Shown: positions 9,310-57,584 of the stretch, piece after piece | How positions within the stretch are numbered: position 1 is the first letter of the stretch | How the letters are laid out: every line of letters starts with the position of its first letter | From: Prosopocoilus inquinatus | Taxonomy: Eukaryota; Arthropoda; Insecta; Coleoptera; Lucanidae | Assembly: GCA_036172665.1 (NCBI GenBank) | Contig: CM069879.1 | Location: forward strand, 21,925,924-21,989,923 | DNA length: 64,000 nt | Reading direction: 5' to 3' | The notes under the pieces: model-generated | Databases searched by the model: none | What the model saw: only the letters and a program-made list of their open reading frames with translations | Told to the model about the DNA's origin: nothing | Made by a program: the position numbers and the translations under genes

Positions 9310-11667
9310 TGTAACACTCACGATCATCAGAATGATACAATTAAACTTGGAATGAAATGTGCCTTACATTTTAGTTAATTCCTGACATCTTCGCATTTTA
9401 ATGAGTAAGAAGTGAAGCGGAGTGTCATCTGTAACTGTCCAAGTGTCCGCGGCAGTATCTGCATGCCTTAATAAAACAACTCAAATTATGTTGTTACAAT
9501 ATGTAAATTATTTTTTGATTATTGAGAGCGCATGAATTTTATATTCATAGAATGAAAATTTAAATGCATTTAAGACTCCTTCGGCTGTAGTTCTGGTCCG
9601 TTTAGCGCGTTCACTCGTATTATGTAAAATAAACGTCGTGATCGATCACCACAATTAAATCTGTCCCCTTTGTCGGAAATAAATAATGGAACCGTGAATG
9701 GGGTCGCTGGTTCGTTCGACTTTCACGTAAAGCTGGCTGGCATTAAGCGTGCGTCTAAAACAATTAGTTTAATGCAGTAAACTAGAAGGCTCCAAACAGG
9801 AAATGCGCTCGTTGCGAGTGAATGATTATTCAATAGACGCAGCTGCCTGCGAACTGTAAATAGTTTTGCAGTTATTCCGTCAGAATAATCAACAGTTTAC
9901 TGCAGAAGTGTGTAAATGTCATTGTCGTTCAAGTGGACAAATCCAGGTCCGTCGTCAAATCGCTGAAACCAAAGTCAAGCTCGAAGGCACATTCGAGTAG
10001 GTACTGAAATTAAGCTGAAAACTTGCAAATTTGATGAAGGTTATAGTCGCCTGACAAAACGCTCTTAGAGAAACTCTCTTAAAATGTATCAGCTTGATTT
10101 ATCGCAAAAAAATTCAAATTCGTTGAAAATAGGGGTCTTTTTGAGTTAGTCCATGACCGGATCTACTTTACTAATTTTATTGACTTTTTCGCATATACAG
10201 GGACATCAGAAATGATTTCAACCCACGTGTCTGCCCCGTGAACGCATGAAACCCATCGAGACAAGCAAATCAAAATCCAATACTGTCACGAATTGATAAG
10301 AACGTACTTCATCCTGTCACGATCAAATAAGATATCAATTCGATAATTTAGACCATATTACATTGTAAGGAAGATATAGTTAACGTAGTTATGTTATAAG
10401 GGAGTCGCCACCACATTCCGTTTTCCCGTATATCCAGCACTCGCTTACAGGGCAGGACATTGACGAATGAAAAGTGATAGTTAATTTAAGGTTTACATTA
10501 CCTAGTCTTCCTGCACCGTACTCAACCAAAGGCCGCCCAATTCAGAAAATATATTATTGAATACTCTGAAATTAAAAATTAATCACTAACTGATTCACTG
10601 CTTGAATTTCGATAATAATAATAATAATAATGAATGCATTCCAGACTGAACGAATACTCTATGAATGATTTACAAAATACCGTCATTTGAAATGTTAATT
10701 TTGCCTGCGTTCCAAAGACCGAAAAGGACTTACCTGCAAGCAAATCAAACGTCGATTCATTTAAATATAATTCAATTAGATGTGACTGTCATTTACGCTG
10801 CGGAAACTTCCTTTCAAATGTAAATTAGAATATGATACAGTAAGTGAACGGTCAGTGTAAATAATGCGTTCAATTTACTCAATCACTGATTGGTCAGGTA
10901 GTTTAGTTTCTTAAGTAATTGGTTTATGTCGTAGGTCACGTGAGTACAGTATTAAATGAAGACCCGATACATGTTTGAAATTTTTTTCACTAAACTTACT
11001 CTCTGCTTTAGTTTTCGTTTCATTTTCCAGCAAGGTTAATTTAGGTAGTATTTAGTTGTTTAATTTTTCCATTTTTTCTTCAACCGTTCGTTTTATCTGT
11101 AATATAATTTTTGATTGAATGACTTTTTGCTTCTGCTTTCTTAATCAGCTTGATTATTTGTTTCATTTAATTTTATGTATGTTTTTATTTTATACTTTTT
11201 CTTTCGCGTGTTCTCTTTTATATTATTTTAAGTCTTTAGTATTTAAAAACTTTTTCATCTAACGATTTAAGCTTTCGCTATCTAATTGTTGCTTAAGTTT
11301 CGTTGTTTTCCATTTGTTTGGTGTTCTTATTGGTCTTTTTTAATGTTTCATTTTTTATCGTTTTTGATTATCTGCGAATTTAAGAAATTGCTGAATTAAA
11401 AAGTGGCATGTAAAATATTGCTCTTCCTTTTCTCAATCACTCTCTCGGCGTTAGATTGGACCTAAAACCGATGGATCTGTTACAGGGAGTATAAGGTATG
11501 CACTTAATGATTTAAATACAATAACACCCTGTATTTGATTGAGTTCTACAAAGTCGTGCATCAGAATACGCTCTCCCATTAATAAACGACTTTGTTATGT
11601 ATGGTATGTTAACATTAAAGTAACTAATAACTTGATTTTTATTTTGTAAATAAATAAATTACTAATT
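9310..11667. other. Intergenic sequence, nothing recognised
   Basis: 9560-9900 is mildly GC-enriched and mixed with AT-rich words, which could be a conserved non-coding island. 10980-11400 is a T-rich low-complexity stretch. No coding motif is visible on either strand. Confidence 0.45.
10608..10632. repeat. (AAT)n microsatellite
   Basis: A run of about eight AAT/ATA triplets. Confidence 0.85.
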
Positions 11668-11793
11668 CCCGATTTTTCCACCTCCTGATAAATTTATCTG
11701 TCAGGTATTATCCTTGGAAACCATTGTATCGATAATAGTTTTCTAGGATGTTACCTGCAGATAAATTTATCAAAAAGTGAAGAAATCTGGCAT
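11668..11793. repeat. Short palindromic element
   Basis: TGATAAATTTATCTG at about 11686 and its reverse complement at 11758-11772 form the core. Similarity extends outward to CCGATTTTTCCAC against GTGAAGAAATCTGG. Inner arms (AGGTATTATCCTTGGAAAC / TTTTCTAGGATGTTACCT) also pair. Confidence 0.65.
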
Positions 11794-11800
11794 AAGGCAT

Positions 11801-11935
11801 GATTTCATAATAGAACTAAAGTAGACTTTAAAATAAAAGTCACAGTCATATGTCCAGAAAGACGCGAAACGCAGTTATTTATACATCAGATTGTGACTTT
11901 TATTTTAAAGTCTCCTTTAGTTCTATTATGAAATC
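11801..11935. repeat. 135-bp hairpin-forming inverted repeat
   Basis: GATTTCATAATAGAACTAAA at 11801 pairs with its reverse complement ending at 11935. The match continues through GACTTTAAAATAAAAGTCAC, giving arms of about 47 bp with one indel. It directly abuts the preceding palindrome, so the two may be parts of one element. Confidence 0.75.
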
Positions 11936-15107: not shown

Positions 15108-15483
15108 GCGAAAAAATAGGGCAATTTGTGATTTTGTTTTCATAAATACCTCACATTAAGTATTCATATTATTTTATTGGAGCGTTTTCATCAATGTGAA
15201 AATACTATATACACTGAAGATACTTTTACCTGCGTACAAATTTAAAGTACACGTAAGAGATAGTAATTAAACACAATAATTTACATAAGAAACAGAACCA
15301 TTCCATCTGTTTTGTAAATGGTTGTTTTTAATTATTATTGTACTTTAAATTTTTACGCAAGTAAAAGTATTTTCTGTATACATAGTATTTTCACATTAAT
15401 GAAAATGCTCCAACAAAATAATATGAATACTTAATATGAGGTATTTATTAAAATAAATTCACAAATTGCCCATTTTTGGCACC
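15108..15483. repeat. Foldback element, 376 bp
   Basis: The left arm at about 15108-15255 (GGGCAATTTGTG, CACATTAAGTATTCATATTA, TTTTCATCAATGTGAAAATA) is mirrored by the right arm at about 15338-15483. The arms are about 140 bp and roughly 85% complementary. There is no coding capacity. The target duplication is unclear. Confidence 0.75.
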
Positions 15484-23417: not shown

Positions 23418-24889
23418 ATGGATCCAGAAATAATTTTGAGTGGACGAGGAAAACATTTATTAAGTATTAATAACTATAAATATGGTTTTCAAAAGGCCCT
23501 GAAAAGTGGTGAGAAGCGATGGACTTGTACAAACAGAAAGTGCAAATCATTTGTTCTTACTTTGGGCGAATGTGATAAAAGTTTAACAGTTACAAAACAT
23601 ATACAAGAACATTTTCATGATGCAGTTCTTCGCAGGTTGAAAACCTGCGAAGATCATTCGCAGAATATTACATGAAAATCTACCATCAACATTTACTACA
23701 CATGACGTTGCTTGTGTCAGAAGAAACATCTATAACGCTCGTAGAAAAATTCAGCCAAGGTTACCGAAAAACATCGTGGAAACTTTTGACTTCCTGGACG
23801 AGGCAAACATCCAAACCTCTAGATGTGAACAATTTTTATTGAGTAATAGCAAAAGTAAACAGATAGTGATATTTTCGTGTAAATCTAATATTCAGATCTT
23901 GGAAAAAGTCACACAAATTTATTTAGATGGTACGTTTAATTATTGTGCGCAATTTTTTTGTCAATTTTTTACTTTACACGGTTATTGTAACGGGCATTAC
24001 ATTCCATTATTTTTTTCATATAAAATAGCGACATCTTACTATCGCTTTTTGACCTAACATTGCAGTAGGATAGACAAATTGAAGCGGGATTTGCTCCTAA
24101 TGAGTCCCCCATGCAAGGCGGCCATGCTTGCTGTCAAAGCAAAATTATTTTTTTCATTGTTACCTAATAAACGCTCAGAAACGTATAAAAACCTATTCAA
24201 ATCAACAATAAATATTTGTAACGATAATGGTTACATTCAAAATTTCTAAAATTGTTATCGATTTTGAGAAAGGTATCCACAAAGCAGTCGAACAAATTTT
24301 TCCTTCAGCAGAAATAACTGGCTGTCGGTTTCACCTTGCCCAATCGTGGTTCAGAAAAATTCAAGAATACGGCCTTACATCCGAATATAAAACCGAACAT
24401 TCTGAAGTTGGTAGATGACTACGAATGACTTTTGGTCTTACATTTTTAAGTCCTCGCGATGTTGGCGACTGCTTTGTTCTTGATTTGCTTGCGATAGCAC
24501 CAACTGACGAAAAAATTCAAAAGTATTCGGATTATTTAACAGATAATTATATAACAGACGAGTCTCTCTTTCCACCCTCTCTTTGGGCTCAGAATTCAGC
24601 TGAACTTACACGCACTACTAATGCCTGTGAATCTTTTCATAAACATTTTAATGCGTCTTTTTATAAAGCACATCCAAACATTTTAAATTTCTTAGAAAAA
24701 CTTAAAGAATTTCAAATTGAAACTTATGTTAAATTACAAAGCATCAACATTAAGGCTCAAATACATAATAGTAAAGTAAAAAACCGTCAAAAATTTATAG
24801 CAAAAATGATAGAATCTTATTCCAGAAATGAAATTAGTCGACTACATTTTATTAAATGTGTTTCTTTTCACTGTGCTGTAACTGTTTGA
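23418..24889 (+). pseudogene. FLYWCH-MULE transposase pseudogene
   Basis: ATG at 23418 follows a short leader. Residues about 10-72 form a FLYWCH zinc finger (GRGKHLLSINNYKYGF, then W-T-C, K-C and a final H-F-H). A frame change near 23640 coincides with a perfect hairpin CTTCGCAGGTT/AACCTGCGAAG. The MULE catalytic region then follows: IYLDGTFNYCAQFF with the first catalytic Asp, HGYCNGHYIPLFF, then after an insertion LLPNKRSETYKNLF. Next come another shift, VIDFEKGIHKAVEQIFPS, GCRFHLAQSW (second acidic and CxxH-like region) and the tail TRTTNACESFHKHFNASFY. At least three frame changes and one insertion disable it. In an active element the protein cuts and reinserts the transposon. Confidence 0.85.
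24020..24143 (-). mobile_element. 124-bp 5'-truncated insertion of the hammerhead-repeat family
   Basis: The segment is almost identical, in reverse complement, to about 56735-56860 (CTTTGACAGCAAGCATGGCC through GATAGTAAGATGTCGC). It is flanked by an exact 14-bp duplication, ATTATTTTTTTCAT, at 24006-24019 and 24144-24157. Removing it and one duplicate joins IPLFF to SLLPNKR in frame in the MULE transposase, so the site is a true insertion. A long, element-independent duplication with a 5'-truncated body indicates retroposition. Confidence 0.9.
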
Positions 24890-43505: not shown

Positions 43506-43599
43506 GTTAACGTTAAAGTTTGGCACTAAGTACTTCATCAAGTGATCTTAAATATCTGAAAATTCAAAATGGTGTGTACCTTAGGAAATTTCCTTTTGC

Positions 43600-45560: not shown

Positions 45561-47456
45561 CAAGTTTAAGTACTAATGATTTGCTTCCATTCTTCTCAAT
45601 CCAGTATTTCAATAGCCAATTCTGTACATCGATCTCTCTTAGATCTTTCTACATTATTTCCAATCATTTCTTTGTGGATCCTTGTCTTCTTCTTATAACT
45701 TCACCTTCAAGCAAGGCTCTTTTCACCCATGTCTTCGTGTGTTCTAAAGTAACATATTCGGCATTCAGTCTCCTCTTCCAAATTCTAAAATCAAAACACG
45801 TATATTTTAGAACATAACGTAATAACTTCAGAGTTATTTGCATCCCTTTATGTAAAAAAATATTTATTACAAAATGTATCTATCCGTCATTAATTAATTC
45901 AATATGAAAATTTGAAATTATTAACGAGCAAATATGAATATAATTCGTTACACAGATATTTTAGATGGTAGGGAATAATTTCTGTTAAACGTTGACCTAC
46001 TCAATTAATGTTTGCTTATTAAAAATTCCCGCTTTTAATATTAAAATAATTAAATTAAAGATGCAACCTATAATATTTAATAAATTATCTATCTAATTAT
46101 TAGAAACTGAAATTAGCTTAAGATTTTGAGGAGAACACAAGTTCATGTGAGGAAAAATGTTATGCTGCGAGCAAGAAAATGGGAGCACTTTTTTGTGGCA
46201 GAGTTAACAAAAAAAATTGCTGGGTGGCGGTAATTACGAACTTACGGATGAGCGACAAATGATTTTTTTAAGGATAAATATATTTTCCATTCTTGCTTTA
46301 TCTGTACGGCTAACAAGAGCTAATATTCTTCAAAATCAAATAACGACTGACTTTCGTTAATTATTGTCTGTCGTCCGTAAATGTCAGTTGAAAATCACAG
46401 CCACCCAACAAAATTCTTAGCCTTATTAAATTTACGCCAAAAAAGTGTCCACTATTTTTGGCCACGACAATACTTCCTTTTGTTTTCGTGAAATAACTTT
46501 GTCGTTTGCAGCTGGAGGTCATTCTTAACTCAGACTGATCCGAATATAATAAGAAAACTTATCTGTATATTTTTAATGCTTGTCCGAAATAACAGGACAC
46601 ATAGGAGTAAATTCGAACACCTTTAGTTAATATAAGCCCACACGCTTTAAAACTACATGGTAATTTCAACTAGGTATAATTTGTTTTGTTGTATTGTTCA
46701 TACTATCGTAACTTATTTTTAGTCAGAAAACTTGACGCCTATAGTTATAAAAGTCATTTTACAAATTCCATTGTGCTTGTGACAAATAAGACAAATTAGT
46801 TGTCGGTGTTTTAGTTGCATAAAATAAAAATTTAGTTATTTCTGCCTTTTATAAGCTGTCATTACTTTTTTCATTGTTAAGAAATATCAAAATTAGTTTT
46901 TGCAACTTTTATTTTGTTGCTAAAAACAAAAATATCACGAACATTACACTGTTTCCACAATTAACACATCATCACTAAAAAATTAGTTGTGACATCAAAA
47001 ATTTAGTTGGGATTTTTAGCGTGCAATTTTCACTCATTTGTCAATTTCTTCGATTTTGTGTCTTTGGTATTTGATTTAAAATTGAAACTGGAGATTTTGT
47101 TTAACAACCACGTTACCAGAGAGATTAAATTTATCCTACTGGCAGGTAGCAAACAGTTTAACAGACTATTGAAAAACTGGGCCTTAAACCTTAATATTAA
47201 CATCAATGTTGCATTTCTTGTAACTAAATTCAATAAACAAGATACCACGTTACATGTGTAATTTTCTTTTAATTTCTATTTTACTTTTAAGAACGATAAT
47301 CACCAAAAACCTTAAAAATGTGTTCGAAGTAACCCCTTGTTACGGTAGATATCCAGACATGTCTTGCATTTTCAAATTTCACAGTATTTGCTACTGTAAA
47401 ATTATTTAATATTAATAATATTTACTGTCGCTTATAAACAGATGTGAATATTGTTA
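45561..47456. other. Intergenic sequence with one foldback
   Basis: AT-rich; apart from the inverted repeat at 46160-46472 no feature is recognised. The complementary frames near 47007-47261 have no motif. Confidence 0.45.
46160..46472. repeat. Imperfect foldback element
   Basis: The left arm (GGGAGCACTTTTTTGTGGCA, ATTGCTGGGTGGCGGTAATT, ACTTACGGATGAGCGACAAA) is mirrored by the right arm (GTCTGTCGTCCGTAAATGTC, CACAGCCACCCAACAAAATT, AAAAAAGTGTCC). The arms are about 100 bp and 75-80% complementary. Ends are approximate. Confidence 0.65.
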
Positions 47457-47458
47457 TA

Positions 47459-48625
47459 CAGGGTGAGTCTTTTATCTTGAGATAACGCAATATCTCGAAA
47501 ACTAGGCATCGGATCAAAAAGCGTTGTGAATACAATTTGTTCGACCCGAAGGAGCCTATCTAATTTTACCAATCGCGACCTCCCACCCCAACTCCCAATG
47601 AGTCGGGCTGGGGGCAACTTTTAAATCACAAATAGGAACCACCATTTCTTATTGCAGATTCTAATTCTATGCCTCAAACTACGTAAGGTTTGTCGGAATC
47701 TTTGTTTTGGATTCCTTGTCGATGGCGTTGAATTTTTGCAAAACCTACTTTTAGCGTTACCCAAGAACGAGTAGGTTTCTGTTCCCATCGGGGTGCTTGT
47801 TTTAGGTAAGTCCCCTCGCCTCTCACCACCGGGTGTTTATTTGTAATATTACTTTAGTGAGTGCACCACGTCGTTGTTCCTGGATAAGGCTAACGATAGA
47901 TTTTTATCTTGAGACAAGGCAATATCGTGGAAACTATGCATAAGATCAAAAAACTTTGTGAATGTAATTTGTTCGATCCGAGGGGTCCTATCTAATCATG
48001 CCAATCGCGACTCCTCACACCCACTCCCATTGGGTGGGGCTGGGGGCAACTTTCATATTGCAAATAGGAATCACCATTTTTTATTGCAGATTCGAATTTT
48101 ACGCCTCAAACTACGTAAGGTTTGTCCGAATTTCTGTTTTGGATTACTGGCCGATGGCGTTGAATTTTTGCAAAACCTATCTTTAGCCTTACCCAGGAAC
48201 AACGACGTGGTGCACTTACTGAAATAATATTACAAATAAACACCCCGGTGGTGAGAGGCGAGGGGACTTATCTAAAACAAGCACCCCGATGGAAACAGAA
48301 ACCTACTACGTCGTTGTTCTTGGGTAACGGTAACAGTAGGTTTTGCAAAAATTCAACGCCTTCAGTGAGGAATTCAAAACAAAGATTCGAACAAACCTTA
48401 CGTACTTTGAGTCGTAGAATCCGAATCTGCAATAAAAAATGGTGGTTCCTATTTACTACTTAAAAGTTGCCCCCAGCTCCACCCACTGGGGGTGGGTATC
48501 GTGAGTCACGATTGGTATAATTAGATAGGCCCCTTCGGATCGAACAAATTACATTCACAACATTTTTTGATCCGATGGATAGTTTTCAAGATATTGCGTT
48601 GTCTCAAGATATAAAACTCACCCTG
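47459..48625. mobile_element. TA-flanked foldback with three arms
   Basis: The terminal repeat CAGGGTGAGTCTTTTATCTT at 47459 is matched by the complement AACTCACCCTG at the right end, with TA outside each end (47457-47458, 48626-48627). Inside are two direct copies of the arm (about 47475-47770 and 47895-48197) and one inverted copy (about 48318-48615). The central spacer with CCATCGGGGTGCTTG occurs once forward (about 47785) and once inverted (about 48280). No protein is encoded. Confidence 0.85.
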
Positions 48626-48627
48626 TA

Positions 48628-48900
48628 TATACACAGTAAAATATTATATAAATATAACAGGTATAAGAAAGTTAGTATAATAATAAAATAAATATCAAAT
48701 TACGCAAGAAGCATTACATTGTCAGTAATGTAAGAAAATAGCTTGAAATATGACTGCAGATACATATAAAACAAAAGAAAATTATATTTAAAACGAAGAT
48801 AAAGAAGGTGTGTACCTATGTCACTATTACAGAAATGTACATTCTCACTTTATCAGCTGAGAATGTAAAAGTTAGTCAGCGAAACAGAAGTTATGCAATT
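48628..48900. other. AT-rich intergenic sequence
   Basis: Likely includes the decayed 3' untranslated end of the non-LTR element that follows on the minus strand; no boundary is visible. Confidence 0.35.
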
Positions 48901-49114
48901 TCATATGGTAATAAATTCATTTACATGATAAAAGAGCTTAGAAAGCAAATAGGTTTTAATTAAAGTTTTGAATTGCTTTAAACTAGTATTTTTAATGGCG
49001 GAAGGTAGTGCATTAAATACTTTTATGGCTCTGTAATGAGCACCACGTTGATATAGCGATGATTTGTGGCTGAGAGTGCAGAAATCGTTACAATATCTAG
49101 TGCTCATGTTCATG

Positions 49115-49229
49115 TACTACGATGCTCAACTTAAATGATACCATTTGACTGTTTCGTAGCTCTTCCGCTAAATGTCCTTAAGGATGTGGTTCGCATGCAG
49201 GAGTATCATTTAGGTTAAGCATTGTAGTA
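49115..49229. mobile_element. 115-bp palindromic MITE, copy A
   Basis: TACTACGATGCTCAACTTAA at the left pairs with the complement TTAGGTTAAGCATTGTAGTA at the right. The interior includes TTTCGTAGCTCTTCCGC and CCTTAAGGATGTGGTTCGC. It lies within the non-LTR element. A second copy, in opposite orientation, is at 57726-57836. Confidence 0.85.
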
Positions 49230-49329
49230 TATATCAGAATTCCGAGTATACAAGTGCCATTTTGTTTACGAAGACAGCTACTTCTAAAATATATAAGCTA
49301 GCTAATGGTAGTATCCTTAATCTTTTATA

Positions 49330-50530
49330 CAGGGAAGGGCAAAAGTATGGAATCGGCTTAATATTCCTAAAACTGTTTGACGTAATTATTTGAAATTTGC
49401 TGTGTGATTCACAGTCAATAGGACCTACAGTACCAATTTGTTTCAATTGTTTATCTGCTCTTATTTCTGAGATCCAATGCCTACTTGATTTTTTTTTAAA
49501 TAACAACCTGTTGATTTTTTTCCTCTATTTAATAGTTCGTTTAATTCTTTAAAAGACCACATAAAAATATTTATCTATTGCATAAGAAAATTTTCGAGAA
49601 AATAATGTTTGAAGGAAAAAGTTAGAAAAAATGGTTTACGCTGATATTTGGTATTTGTTTTCATGTTTTTAAGGCAATTTTTATTAAAAGTTTCTTTAGC
49701 GCTGTTTTAAAAACAGCCCCTAATCTTGTGGTCTTCCAGTTTTTTTGTTAAAACTAGAATTTTTGTCGAATATCAGACAATAAACCATTTTTCCTAACTT
49801 TTTCATTCAAACGCTTTTTTCCCGAAAATTTTCTTATGTAATAGATAAATATTTTTATGTGGTCGTTTAAAGAATTAAACAAGCTATTAAATAAAGGAAA
49901 AAAATCAGCAGGTTGTCATTAAGAAAAATCAAGTAGGCGTTGTATTTCAGAGACAAGAGCAGATAAACAATTGAAATAAATTGGTAATGTAGGTCCAATA
50001 GACTCTGAATCACACACCTAATTTCAAATAGATACGTCAAACAGTTTTCGAAATATTAAGCCGGTTCCATGCTTTTGTCCTTCCCCATATCTGTTTTCAT
50101 ATTTTTAAAATAACTTTTATTGAAGTTTGCATTAGTTCTATCTTAAAAGCAACCCATAATTTTGTGGCCTTCTAGTTTTTTTTTCTTTTGCTAAAACAAA
50201 TATTTTTGTCAAATATCAAACATTAGACAATTTTTCTTAACTTTTTCATCAAACGTTATTTTCTCGAAAATTTTCTTATGTAATAGATTAATATTTTTAT
50301 GTGGTCGTTTAGAGAATTGAACGAACTATTAAATAAAGGAAAGAAATCAGCAGGTTGTCATTTAAAAAAAATCATGTAGGCATTGGATCTCAGAAACAAG
50401 AGCAGATAAACAATTGAGAGAAATTGGTAAAATAGGTCTTATTGACTCTAAATGATATACCAAATTTCAAACAGATACGTCAAACAGTTTTCGAAATATT
50501 AAGCAGGTTCCATACTTTTGCCCTACCCTG
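49330..50530. mobile_element. TA-flanked foldback with three arms, inside a non-LTR element
   Basis: The ends read CAGGGAAGGGCAAAAGTATG (left) and the complement TACTTTTGCCCTACCCTG (right), with TA at 49328-49329 and 50531-50532. One left arm (49330-49700) faces two direct copies of the right arm (about 49740-50090 and 50160-50530). A copy of the centre (TTTTCATATTTTTAAAATAA) lies between the two right arms. It encodes no protein. It splits the reverse transcriptase remnant, which resumes in matching order on each side. Confidence 0.88.
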
Positions 50531-51195
50531 TATAATGATCTGCATAGAACTCTAACAATACTTTTTTGCAGCACAAATAGATACGTAAAGTGACTGGATG
50601 AGCCCCAGAATATTAAACCGTACCGTAGCCTCGATTTGACATAGGCAAAATAAAATGTTTTTAGTCAGAATGTTCCCACAGAAGTTTTCGATTATTTAAA
50701 GCATAAAATGCAGAACATAATTTCTTGCTTAATTTATAACAGTGTAGTTCCCAATCGAGCCTGGAGTCAACCTGAAGACCTAAAAATTCAACGTTATTTG
50801 TTAGTGGCAAAGATTTGCTATCATGTTTAAAAGATTGCTGTAATCAGTTGCATGATTTTTGAAATTTACTAAATTCATTTTTTTCAGATTGAGTAGAAAA
50901 TTATTGTCCATGCATCATTTATTCATGTTATATACAACTTCAGTATGGATATTGTGATATTGGAAATTTCAGCAATTTATTTTATTTATCGGTAATTATT
51001 ACATTAGTCTCATCCGCATATGACCTGAAGTTAATGATGCTTGTAAATCATTGACATAAATCAAAAGCAACGTAGGGCCTAGAATGGATCCATGTGGGAC
51101 TTCTCTATAAATAGGTAATTTTGAGGACTGATGATGACCATTGCGTTCTGACGTTAAAGAAACAACTTGACTGCGGTTGCTGAGGTACGAGTGAA

Positions 51196-54870: not shown

Positions 54871-55404
54871 AATAGTCAAATAAATAAGATTTTCTTTTAA
54901 ACCAGGTTTCGACTGAAGCGCAGAGTGCTTCAACGAACGTTCCAAACTAATTCCAACAATGTTGTAATGAATCTCTCCTGTTCAAACAACGATATATGTC
55001 CCATGCACGGATAATGCGCGGACTCAATCTAGGAAGGAACACTTTGGCGTGAAGCCTTTGTTGCAGGCTCATTTCAATTTAAAACAATGCATCGCCCGCC
55101 CACGGAAATGTATTTCTGCAGATCTGCAGATCCCGCTTTGGTCTTGAGTCCGCCTCCGCCTGTCTTTTTTACCGTCTTCTGACGAAATTTTCGATTTTTC
55201 TGAAGCAATCTCTTGCATTCGATTCCGCAAAGTTTCCAGATTTCGTAAAATGCCTAACAAGTCTCATTTCAACGGATTCCTGGAGTTTTTACGAAATAAT
55301 CTTTGTTTTCTTTTAAGGGTCATCACGCCGTTTGTGATCCTTCCGACAGCACTAATTTATTTTGGGGTTTTAACATGCCTTCATAAGCAACCTTTGTTTA
55401 CATT
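54871..55404. other. Intergenic sequence, nothing recognised
   Basis: A small palindrome GCAGATCTGCAGATC lies at about 55117. No other feature. Confidence 0.45.
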
Positions 55405-56216
55405 ATTTTGATTTATCCTTAGATAACATTATAGCCGATTTTGATGTTAGGGTTATGAAATATGCGGATGACACTACAATAACCATATCTGATGCGAATT
55501 TTGAAGAATATGTACAAAAAGCAAATTCTATTGCCAGTTTAATAAATAGTTGGTGCTTAGCCAGCAAACTTGTACTTAATAACTCTAAGACGGGTTTCAT
55601 GGTCTCTGAAAATGTTCATTGAACAAGCTACAATACCAACCCACTAATCAAAATCTGTGCAGTAAGTTAGGACGGTAGAGAAAGAAACACTAGTAGGTCT
55701 TAGAGTGGAAGAGAATTTACATTGGGAAAATGGAGTGGACCATATCTGCAGCACACTGAGAAGTGCAAGTTATGCTATCCTTATGATATGAGACTGTGTT
55801 AGCACTAGTACATTACTTACTTTTATGCCTGTGTACAATCCTATATGCAGTACGGATTACTTTTCTGTAGTATGTCGCTAGAGTGTCAGCGTATACTGTT
55901 GCTCCAAAAAATAATTATCAGACGCATAAATTTTGTAAATTACTGTGAGCATTCCAGACCTCTTCTGAAGAAACTAAAGATAATAACGATCTTCTCTTTA
56001 TATACGTATTGTAGTGTGTTATTCTCTACTCAAAATGATGAAAAATTTGAGGACACCGTAACGTTTATAATATAACATCCCTCTACGAGGAAGTACCAAA
56101 ATATATGGGACTTAAGATTTTTAATAAGTTGTCAAGTTGCATCAAAGCACTCAAATCTACAAGAAGTTTTAAACTTGAATTGAAAGAGTATTTTACGGAA
56201 AAGCCATTTTAGTCTT
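55405..56216 (+). pseudogene. Non-LTR retrotransposon reverse transcriptase remnant (plus strand)
   Basis: The frame reads RVMKYADDTTITIS, with the catalytic YADD at 55461-55472. The typical thumb-side segment follows (SIASLINSWCLASKLVLNNS, KTGFM). After stops and shifts come YMQYGLLFCS, LLKKLKIITIFSLYTYCSVL and YMGLKIFNKLSSCIKALKST with LKEYFTEKPF. This is the same C-terminal half as in the element at 48.9-51.2 kb, probably a related Jockey/CR1-like family. The fingers, palm start, endonuclease and ORF1 are absent. Confidence 0.85.
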
Positions 56217-56346
56217 TGAACGAATTTATATTCATAATTAATAATGATATTTTATCAATAAGTTTAATAAAAAAATTTGTCGCTGTTTTATCTTTTCATC
56301 ACTCTTACATCGCAATTGCGAATAAATTGGACAAGTCGTTCTTGTT

Positions 56347-56403
56347 TGCAGTGGGAATGTCGAGCTACGTCTCTGCTGACGAAGCCCCAAGCAGGGCTGA
56401 AAC
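56347..56403 (+). ncRNA. Hammerhead ribozyme, 3' part deleted
   Basis: The unit 1 copy has the outer stem I strand, UACG, UCUCUG, core CUGACGA (56376-56382), stem II AGCCC/GGGCU and GAAAC (56399-56403). It then jumps to AUGCAAAA. The 3' strand of stem III, the cleavage site and the 3' strand of stem I are gone, so it cannot cleave. Confidence 0.8.
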
Positions 56404-56603
56404 ATGCAAAATTTTTTTTAAAACTTTCGTTATGCTTTGACAGCAAGCATGGCCGCCTTGCATGGGGGACTTATTAAATCCGCTTCAATTTGTCTATCCT
56501 ACTGCAATATTAGGTCAAAAAGCGATAGTAAGATGTCGCTATTTTATATATTCATCATTCTTACATCGCATTTGCGAATAAATTGGGCAAGTCGTTTTTG
56601 GTC

Positions 56604-56694
56604 TGCAGTGGGAATGTCGAGCTACGTTTCTGCTGAAGAAGCCCCAAGCAGGGCTGAAACAGCTGTCCAGAGGCTGCTCGAGGTTCTCACTGCA
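56604..56694 (+). ncRNA. Hammerhead ribozyme, type I, core intact
   Basis: Outer stem I: 56604-56622 pairs with 56676-56694 over 19 nt (16 Watson-Crick pairs, two G-U, one mismatch). An internal loop UACG/CU follows, then inner stem I UUUCUG/CAGAGG (56627-56632, 56668-56673). Core CUGAAGA is at 56633-56639. Stem II is AGCCC/GGGCU with loop CAAGCA (56640-56655). GAAA is at 56656-56659. Stem III is ACAG/CUGU with no loop. The cleavage triplet GUC ends at 56667. Every nucleotide required by the hammerhead consensus is present. A loopless stem III suggests activity mainly as a dimer or in tandem transcripts, as described for Penelope-type hammerheads. Confidence 0.88.
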
Positions 56695-56866
56695 ATCAAA
56701 AACGATTTACACAAAATTTTTCTAAAATCTTTCATTATGCTTTGACAGCAAGCATGGCCGCCTTGCATGGGGGACTCATTAGGAGCAAATCCCGCTTCAA
56801 TTTGTCTATCCTACTGCAATGTTAGGTCAAAAAGCGATAGTAAGATGTCGCTATTTTATATGTTTA

Positions 56867-57584
56867 TATATTTAATGTTTTTTTTTTTAACATGACTTGT
56901 GTAATGATAACGCCTGAAGGCTGCCTTCCCGAAGACAGTTCTGCTTCGCACGCAAACTTTGCCATTGCGGCAGTGTCTTTTTCGCTATTGTCCAGTTTGT
57001 CTTTGATGGCCTTCATTGGAGCAGCAGCTGTTTAACCTTATTATTTTTTTTTGTGAGTGTGTGGACCCAGTCGAAATATTTGTTTTCTTTACTACAAGCG
57101 TACATACTCCCATGTTTTCTTTCCGATTAATCGATACAACTTCCGTATTTGTTATATTTTTTTTTTTGTACAGCTTGTTTGGTACGTTAGTTTTTCTTTT
57201 TATACGCAAATTTAGGCAATTGTTCGCTCATTTTTTAACCGTTCTGATCATCTTATATGGTGCTTTTTGCCACTCGTTCATTTTACGGAGAGTCAACAAA
57301 GGACCATCAGCTGTTGGTTATTGTCAGCGTACTTGTAACGAAAGTCGATCACTTCCTTAACACATTTCGCAGTGGTGTACTGCTCTTGCGGGCACGTTTC
57401 CGAGCGTTTGCGGACGAGAATATTTTTTTCTTGTTGGGGAACTCATCTTATGACTCGCTCCTGACTTCACATTTTCTATAAACTAACCATAACTACTACG
57501 CCGGGTCCATTGGTAATGATAACCGTACTTCTCGGAGAACTCGGTGTACGCAGGTAAGGTCTTCTAATTATACAATCTTAATAT
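56867..57584. other. Unassigned region downstream of the hammerhead repeat
   Basis: Part of the minus strand (about 57025-56900) reads AAPMKAIKDKLDNSEKDTAA then MAKFACEAELSSGRQPSG, which looks protein-like but matches nothing I know. At 57390-57310 the minus strand gives CVKEVIDFRYKYADNNQQ. Plus-strand frames here are T-rich and hydrophobic, probably shadows. It may belong to the same unknown element as its neighbours. Confidence 0.3.

Follow-up and report, generated by a model that had tools for sequence, protein, structure and literature searches.

Organization of the array and its surroundings

The window, i.e. the whole 64,000-nt stretch of Prosopocoilus inquinatus DNA that was analyzed, contains a short array of a hammerhead-bearing repeat, directly preceded by a decayed reverse transcriptase (RT) relic, as well as two solo copies of the same element (Table 1). 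The original prediction described tandem units of about 314 bp each; the annotated units measure 256 bp and 312 bp, and they are followed by only about 17-22 bp of a third. In the family numbering used below, q1 corresponds to position 56534 and the cleavage site to q134. Unit 1 lacks approximately 48 nt, a stretch that takes in most of stem III, the GUC triplet at which cleavage would occur and stem I's 3′ strand, and differs from unit 2 by 20 substitutions over 272 aligned positions. Because unit 1 has lost the cleavage half, the window array carries one ribozyme only, and this locus alone should therefore release no unit-length monomer.

Table 1. Features of the element and of the adjoining RT relic in the window (TSD, target-site duplication)
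Feature	Position	Strand	Remarks
Solo copy, 128 bp, X to T, no ribozyme	24018..24145	-	Flanking 14-bp TSD 24006-24019 / 24144-24157
Solo copy, X to T, 88% identity	43380..43503	+	12-bp TSD GTTAACGTTAAA 43359-43370 / 43506-43517
Decayed RT relic, KYADD motif	55380..56212	+	Directly upstream of the array; frame end judged by eye
Unit 1, 256 bp, broken ribozyme	56278..56533	+	
Unit 2, 312 bp, complete type I hammerhead	56534..56845	+	
Long rod (extended stem I, hammerhead at tip)	56583..56714	+	Minimum-energy fold
Hammerhead core	56627..56673	+	Descriptor, fold, RF00163 (23.8 bits; gathering 34)
Inner stem I	56627-56632/56668-56673	+	
CUGAAGA; GAAA	56633-56639; 56656-56659	+	
Stem II, AGCCC/GGGCU	56640-56655	+	Loop CAAGCA
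Stem III, ACAGCUGU	56659-56666	+	
Triplet GUC	last base 56667	+	Predicted cleavage 3′ of C56667, 5′-OH product from 56668
Site X region	56715..56738	+	Just past the rod, about q183-q205; second outer 3′-end class elsewhere
Site T region	56833..56861	+	Hairpin AGCGA..UCGCU, then AUUUUAUAU; first outer 3′-end class
Third-unit start	56846..56867	+	Runs to site T (GUCGCUAUUUUAUAU), where the insertion has its outer 3′ end

No frame of at least 110 aa was found inside the array, no target-site duplication (TSD) of 9 bp or more around it, and no tRNA-like part in the window (ARAGORN, bacterial settings). Site X also lies near the 5′ ends of both solo copies. Chance truncation at the foot of the rod, where three break points fall within 28 nt (chance of about 0.025 per interval of that size), was considered and has been superseded by the recognition of site X.

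The TSDs of both solo copies are perfect (14 and 12 bp, respectively). The minus-strand copy matches unit 2 at all 125 aligned positions, whereas 20 of 272 differ between the two units of the array, so the family has moved recently, and the window array would join an older and a younger unit. This solo copy is located at the edge of an open frame (23641-24057, plus strand) that has no Pfam match; a second frame lies at 24419-24889.

The relic upstream of the array matches RVT_1 over 55380-55622 (E 6.6e-5; 23.2 bits, which is less than the Pfam cut-off of 29.6) and is taken as an older neighbor outside the element. The array was also considered as the 3′ UTR of this relic. That reading was ruled out because the relic is decayed but the 3′ part of the array is identical to another copy, and because the solo copies in the window occur without an RT relic.

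Other repeats were distinguished in the window. A 374-bp tandem repeat (666-1568; 2.4 copies, 91% matches) was examined as a candidate second retrozyme and rejected, as no hammerhead was found there. Long inverted repeats or palindromes at 47455-50535, 15112-15477 and 11662-11935 are probably other mobile elements, and one of the window frames gives a DUF4817 match slightly below the cut-off, which would point to an arthropod.

The hammerhead ribozyme and its genomic copies

Unit 2 contains a complete type I hammerhead placed on a 130-nt rod. The core, the stems and the cleavage position named in the original prediction were confirmed by descriptor and fold, and the 5′ product start claimed there, 56668, agrees with a GUC triplet ending at 56667. 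Inner stem I is 6-7 bp long. Stem III had been called loopless, and it is modeled in this way by RF00163; an alternative drawing gives it 2 bp capped by a palindromic AGCU tetraloop. With both strands of the 64-kb window scanned, the hammerhead descriptor matched a single place, while 500 dinucleotide shuffles of the window gave no match to the strict and three to the loose descriptor.

The covariance models supported this assignment in part. In a 101-base scan RF00163 (Hammerhead_1) was matched over its full length (1-45/45) with 23.8 bits and an E value of 4e-4 over all families, which is significant in such a focused scan but lower than the curated gathering score of 34; a score under threshold was one of the refuting conditions named in the original prediction. 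The HH9 model reached 14.5 bits in a 1.1-kb Rfam scan. At the gathering threshold there was no Rfam match anywhere in the window, and a permissive scan across the window gave nothing hammerhead-like.

When 56580-56715 is folded to minimum energy, 51 pairs make up the rod (z -8.3). Constraining the fold to the ribozyme makes it 6 kcal/mol less stable (-61.5 versus -67.5). The circular fold of unit 2 reaches -105.4, compared with a mean of -72.5 in 100 shuffles. Covariation in the rod was uninformative, with 97.2% of cells paired and no double changes, no better than in shuffles. The RNA of this element probably cuts itself.

A search of the host assembly (650 Mb, 173 contigs) with the 312-bp query gave 105 matches from the 40 scored of 551 candidates. 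Further copies, for which the original prediction had suggested looking, thus exist: 43 matches among those scored cover the whole unit (q1-312) at 97-100% identity. A 138-nt query spanning X to T gave no candidates, possibly on account of over-frequent words in it. Twelve element clusters were found in 8 of twenty random 10-kb regions, which, if this small and clustered sample from nine contigs is representative, would roughly correspond to tens of thousands of loci in the genome. Relatives were found neither in viral and prokaryote contigs by exact pattern nor in plasmids by blastn.

Hammerhead segments of at least 125 nt numbered 156, of which 50 are distinct, and the core is intact in 46 of the latter. 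Variation amounts to 0.016 in the core, 0.008-0.020 in the stems and loop II, and 0.044 in the remaining rod; only this contrast within segments can be used, because copies picked by similarity to unit 2 dominate the set. The ribozyme therefore varies less than its flanks, as the original prediction had required of genomic copies.

At unit alignment column 177, within the rod, single G/A differences recur across many arrays. The pattern is partly due to best-match selection, since the query has A; alternatively, the rod RNA might be edited. Two pairs of loci (L008/L009 and L024/L025) have different contig positions and the same flanks, and represent duplicated regions or retained haplotypes.

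Some long arrays are present, as would be expected of ordinary satellite DNA carrying a hammerhead by chance. This explanation is contradicted by the dispersed copies with TSDs and by the strict descriptor results in shuffled sequence, and we consider it scarcely credible.

Two-armed insertions, their ends and their source

The architecture of the copies was analyzed in 46 locus rows, some of which are overlapping pieces of one locus. Six rows were dropped for flanks already seen (L009, L018, L025, L026, L027 and the window array, repeated as L001); the flank match of L018 arose only because both of its ends fall outside the piece. The remaining 40 rows comprise 14 closed two-armed insertions, 14 closed one-armed insertions and 12 open ones. 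In the two-armed form, which thus accounts for 14 of the 28 closed insertions, multi-unit arms are arranged head to head (<-<-|->->). The tandem arrangement originally described accordingly holds for the one-armed copies, including the window array, but not for this half of the closed insertions, which are head to head with two fixed ends.

In all 14 two-armed insertions both outer ends are 3′ ends, and each insertion pairs one T end with one X end (14/14; 5/5 in the random sample alone). For three of these insertions (L014, L017 and L020) the T end was read from the bases next to the blast match, which itself extends only to q312. Given 14 T and 14 X ends, the chance of all-mixed pairing is 2^14/C(28,14) = 4e-4. 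The X ends fall at q183-199 in every case, and no outer 3′ end of these copies, 28 in total, lies at the cleavage site, q134. The absence of ends at q134 does not fit copying from the ends of cut linear monomers, whereas two fixed outer ends fit an internal start on closed or multimeric RNA.

Each of the 14 two-armed insertions is flanked as a whole by a TSD of 9-17 bp; among 182 mismatched flank pairs used as a control, nine reach 9 bp and none reaches 11 bp. The G+C content of the TSDs (19 TSDs of at least 9 bp) is 0.19, versus 0.355 in the sample. The T arms are 50-1680 nt and the X arms 66-880 nt long. One-armed copies end at T in 12 of 14 cases and at X in two; a TSD of at least 9 bp was found in five of them and is absent in nine, the window array included.

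Diverged copies (83-90% mean identity, three of them in L032) are also two-armed in form. One array of about 10 kb (L005-L007; C7:14477186-14487356) apparently has T at both ends, against the T-X rule, and the sequences on its two sides form an inverted repeat for 59 nt or more. It never closed in one piece and was left out of the counts; it may be an exception, a palindromic duplication or an assembly error. This array is possibly a case in which DNA inversion, recombination or an assembly error produced the head-to-head form only after the element had inserted. As an account of the family such an origin is very unlikely, since it is opposed by the TSDs around whole insertions, by the T and X ends of all 14 and by the recurrence of the form in the diverged copies.

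At the junction the arms overlap by 2-4 nt in 8 of the 14 insertions; the others range from a 14-nt gap to an overlap of 20 nt. Extra strand switches were observed in L020 and L041. Head-to-head arms would likewise result from self-priming fold-back on an antisense transcript, as proposed for rotifer Penelope palindromes in the available text of PMC3846280, and in L020, L034 and L041 the inner ends of the arms are indeed no more than 13 nt apart. Fold-back joins near-equal positions, however, and in 11 of the 14 insertions the inner ends lie at least 63 nt apart in unit position, so most of these insertions are not of this kind. Fold-back also predicts no two different outer ends, and as a general explanation it is highly doubtful.

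LINEs are known for inverted 5′ segments and for TSDs of the 9-17 bp kind, and in twin priming of the L1 type the second priming site is variable. Twin priming by a LINE (an L1-like 5′ inversion) instead of a Penelope-type enzyme would match the inverted segments and the TSD lengths reported here, and an RT relic of LINE type (family assigned by eye) adjoins the window array. Moreover, hammerhead repeats of Nematostella have 15-bp LINE-like TSDs, according to the accessible part of PMC4918200. Against this, the second site is fixed at X throughout the two-armed insertions, and we regard the involvement of a LINE as improbable.

The source of the arms was addressed with a variant set of 118 full units, in which overlapping loci were counted more than once. 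Units from the two opposite arms of an array differ on average at 1.59 of 312 positions (78 pairs); the mean is 2.73 for units of a single arm (186 pairs) and 5.42 for those of separate arrays (6249 pairs). Variants were listed for 11 arrays, seven of which have full units in both arms. Non-consensus variants common to both arms were identified in four of these seven, i.e. L013, L014, L018 and L030, of which L013 and L018 have the same variants and may be duplicates. In L030 a deletion at alignment column 237 is present in 6/6 units, and in L014 T25C is present in 4/4. In the other three arrays no variant runs fully through both arms (none is shared in L002 and L023, and L006 is mixed). T38A, present in several arrays, is a subfamily variant. 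The single-armed L029 has A168G in 5/5 units.

The variants common to both arms indicate a single RNA as the source of at least some insertions. The simplest source of this kind is a circle, because the arms continue uninterrupted past the cleavage site as well as past T and X. In L011 variants also recur every three units, in L029 every two and in L006 every four, which would fit repeated rounds of copying on multimeric circles or on templates of several units.

Two-end priming on a long, uncut, multi-unit linear transcript of a tandem array, with no circle, would explain these periodic patterns directly, and the three arrays that give no sign of a single-unit source are in its favor. The same patterns also fit multimeric circles, and L013, L014, L018 and L030 carry their variants throughout both arms, in every unit or almost every one, which argues against a linear template. 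In addition, the hammerhead is better kept than its surroundings, and a purely linear route would not need that. We therefore consider a linear template possible but rather unlikely.

Candidate partner, proposed mechanism and known systems

A genome search for GIY-YIG domains, in which 150 of 2232 candidates were scored, gave matches above the curated cut-off; the longest uninterrupted frames among those scored reach 788 aa. Insertions of this kind lie, for example, at C1:419154-423235 and C2:41411689-41418268. Many of the matches occur as minus-then-plus pairs a few kb apart, head to head (by eye, uncounted). Neither in the array nor among the searched frames of the window was an ORF combining RT and GIY-YIG found. 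The original statement that the repeat lacks an obvious protein partner is thus valid for those window frames, but the genome has many GIY-YIG frames.

One end of a GIY-YIG element, in L051, was placed at C1:423495 via a related host repeat. It reads ..TCACTATTTATAT, compared with ..TCGCTATTTTATAT at site T. The likeness is weak: the free alignment was equalled by 245 of 2000 shuffles, and the anchored alignment by 159 of 60000 background 18-mers and by 165 of 28057 AT-rich ones. A 21-base pattern running one base into the flank has three occurrences in the genome, which says little. We regard this likeness as suggestive only. Near the same end (L051:264-310) a minimal hammerhead-like core, CUGAAGA / hairpin / GAAAUA, similar to the minimal hammerhead of Penelope, was noted by eye; Rfam gave no hammerhead match on the 601-base end.

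The unit itself was considered as a Penelope pLTR and rejected: it has no long ORF, and its best blastn match to one 601-base Penelope-type end had an E value of 1.1. The kinship originally proposed, to Penelope LTR ends or to animal retrozymes, therefore stands on the side of the retrozymes; the unit is not a pLTR as far as that one end shows. By its hammerhead type, unit size, dispersed copies, lack of a protein and TSD length, the element is assigned to the metazoan non-LTR retrozymes, a known kind. Its unit of 312 nt is within the range of this class (about 170-400 nt), and its TSDs exceed in length the 4-bp TSD of plant retrozymes.

The available text of Cervera and de la Pena 2020 (PMC7229834) describes metazoan non-LTR retrozymes that are like the present element in their type I hammerhead with weak stem III, tandem units of about 300 bp, low G+C content, lack of a protein, long TSDs and highly paired monomer. 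Unlike the retrozymes described there, the element forms head-to-head two-armed insertions with two fixed outer ends. Hammerhead repeats of newt and axolotl, treated in the same text, have similar units (330-350 bp) and a stem III of 1-2 bp with a tetraloop that is palindromic in one family, like the AGCU loop observed here; the head-to-head form found here is unmentioned in the accessible sections of that paper. Plant LTR retrozymes, as presented in the available parts of PMC4918200 and PMC7761336, are likewise non-autonomous, carry a hammerhead and have a circle as presumed template. Their hammerhead is of type III and they possess LTRs, a PBS, a PPT and a 4-bp TSD, whereas the element has a type I hammerhead and TSDs of 9-17 bp.

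The closest parallels in insertion form come from Penelope-like elements encoding GIY-YIG. In the portion of PMC11167929 available, the Penelope protein is reported to cut and extend both strands at AT-rich targets, and its RT to start internally at two adjacent sites, with no strand difference in vitro. According to the accessible text of PMC3846280, Penelope inverted repeats are mostly head to head, with TSDs of 8-10 bp in the cases cited there and an optional tail on one inverted end. As far as these two sources (PMC11167929, PMC3846280) describe them, such elements share with the present one the head-to-head form with TSDs, the AT-rich targets, the two internal starts and the proposed cutting and extension of both strands, as well as a hammerhead motif, located in their pLTR region. 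They differ from it in that the unit described here has no ORF and its hammerhead has a stem III and a long stem I. Furthermore, T and X are about 140 nt apart, in comparison with a tail of 30-40 bp in Penelope. The unit appears to work like a Penelope insertion, yet it is no Penelope element.

Taken as a whole, movement of this retrozyme via an RNA circle and a Penelope-type RT starting from two fixed sites appears to us probable. Multi-unit transcripts would be cut by the hammerhead, and the 312-nt monomer would be ligated to a circle. A Penelope-type RT/endonuclease would then cut AT-rich DNA with a stagger of 9-17 bp, and both exposed 3′ ends would prime on one plus-sense circle, one at T and the other at X. 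Each RT may round the circle several times, which would yield arms of up to 1680 nt. Joining of the two cDNAs, 5′ end to 5′ end, would produce a head-to-head array with T and X as its outer ends. Copying of a single strand would leave a one-armed copy, usually ending at T, and the window array and the two solo copies would be of this type. That precisely one circle was copied from both sides of the staggered break by a Penelope-type enzyme, and that multimeric cDNAs were sealed head to head, is a reading towards which we lean only slightly.

What is new here is a two-armed insertion with two types of ends, in several cases derived from one source. The head-to-head two-armed form is not described in the available sections of the retrozyme texts PMC7229834, PMC7761336 and PMC4918200. 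A limited search of the open-licence literature, in the parts accessible to it, gave no text joining 'retrozyme' with 'twin priming' or 'head-to-head'.

The accessible text of PMC7761336 describes retrozyme repeats as having no conserved motif from which the helper element could be deduced. The insertions analyzed here would record the route back from RNA to DNA, through two fixed starts for RT, the use of both strands and, for several arrays, a single origin of the two arms. Should the proposed mechanism hold, one purified protein and one circular RNA would be enough to test directly which helper acts, where RT starts and whether a circle is used. The same reading may account for the head-to-head form long known in Penelope elements and, if true, would give a reason for the coexistence of Penelope elements with metazoan retrozymes and for the hammerheads retained in both.
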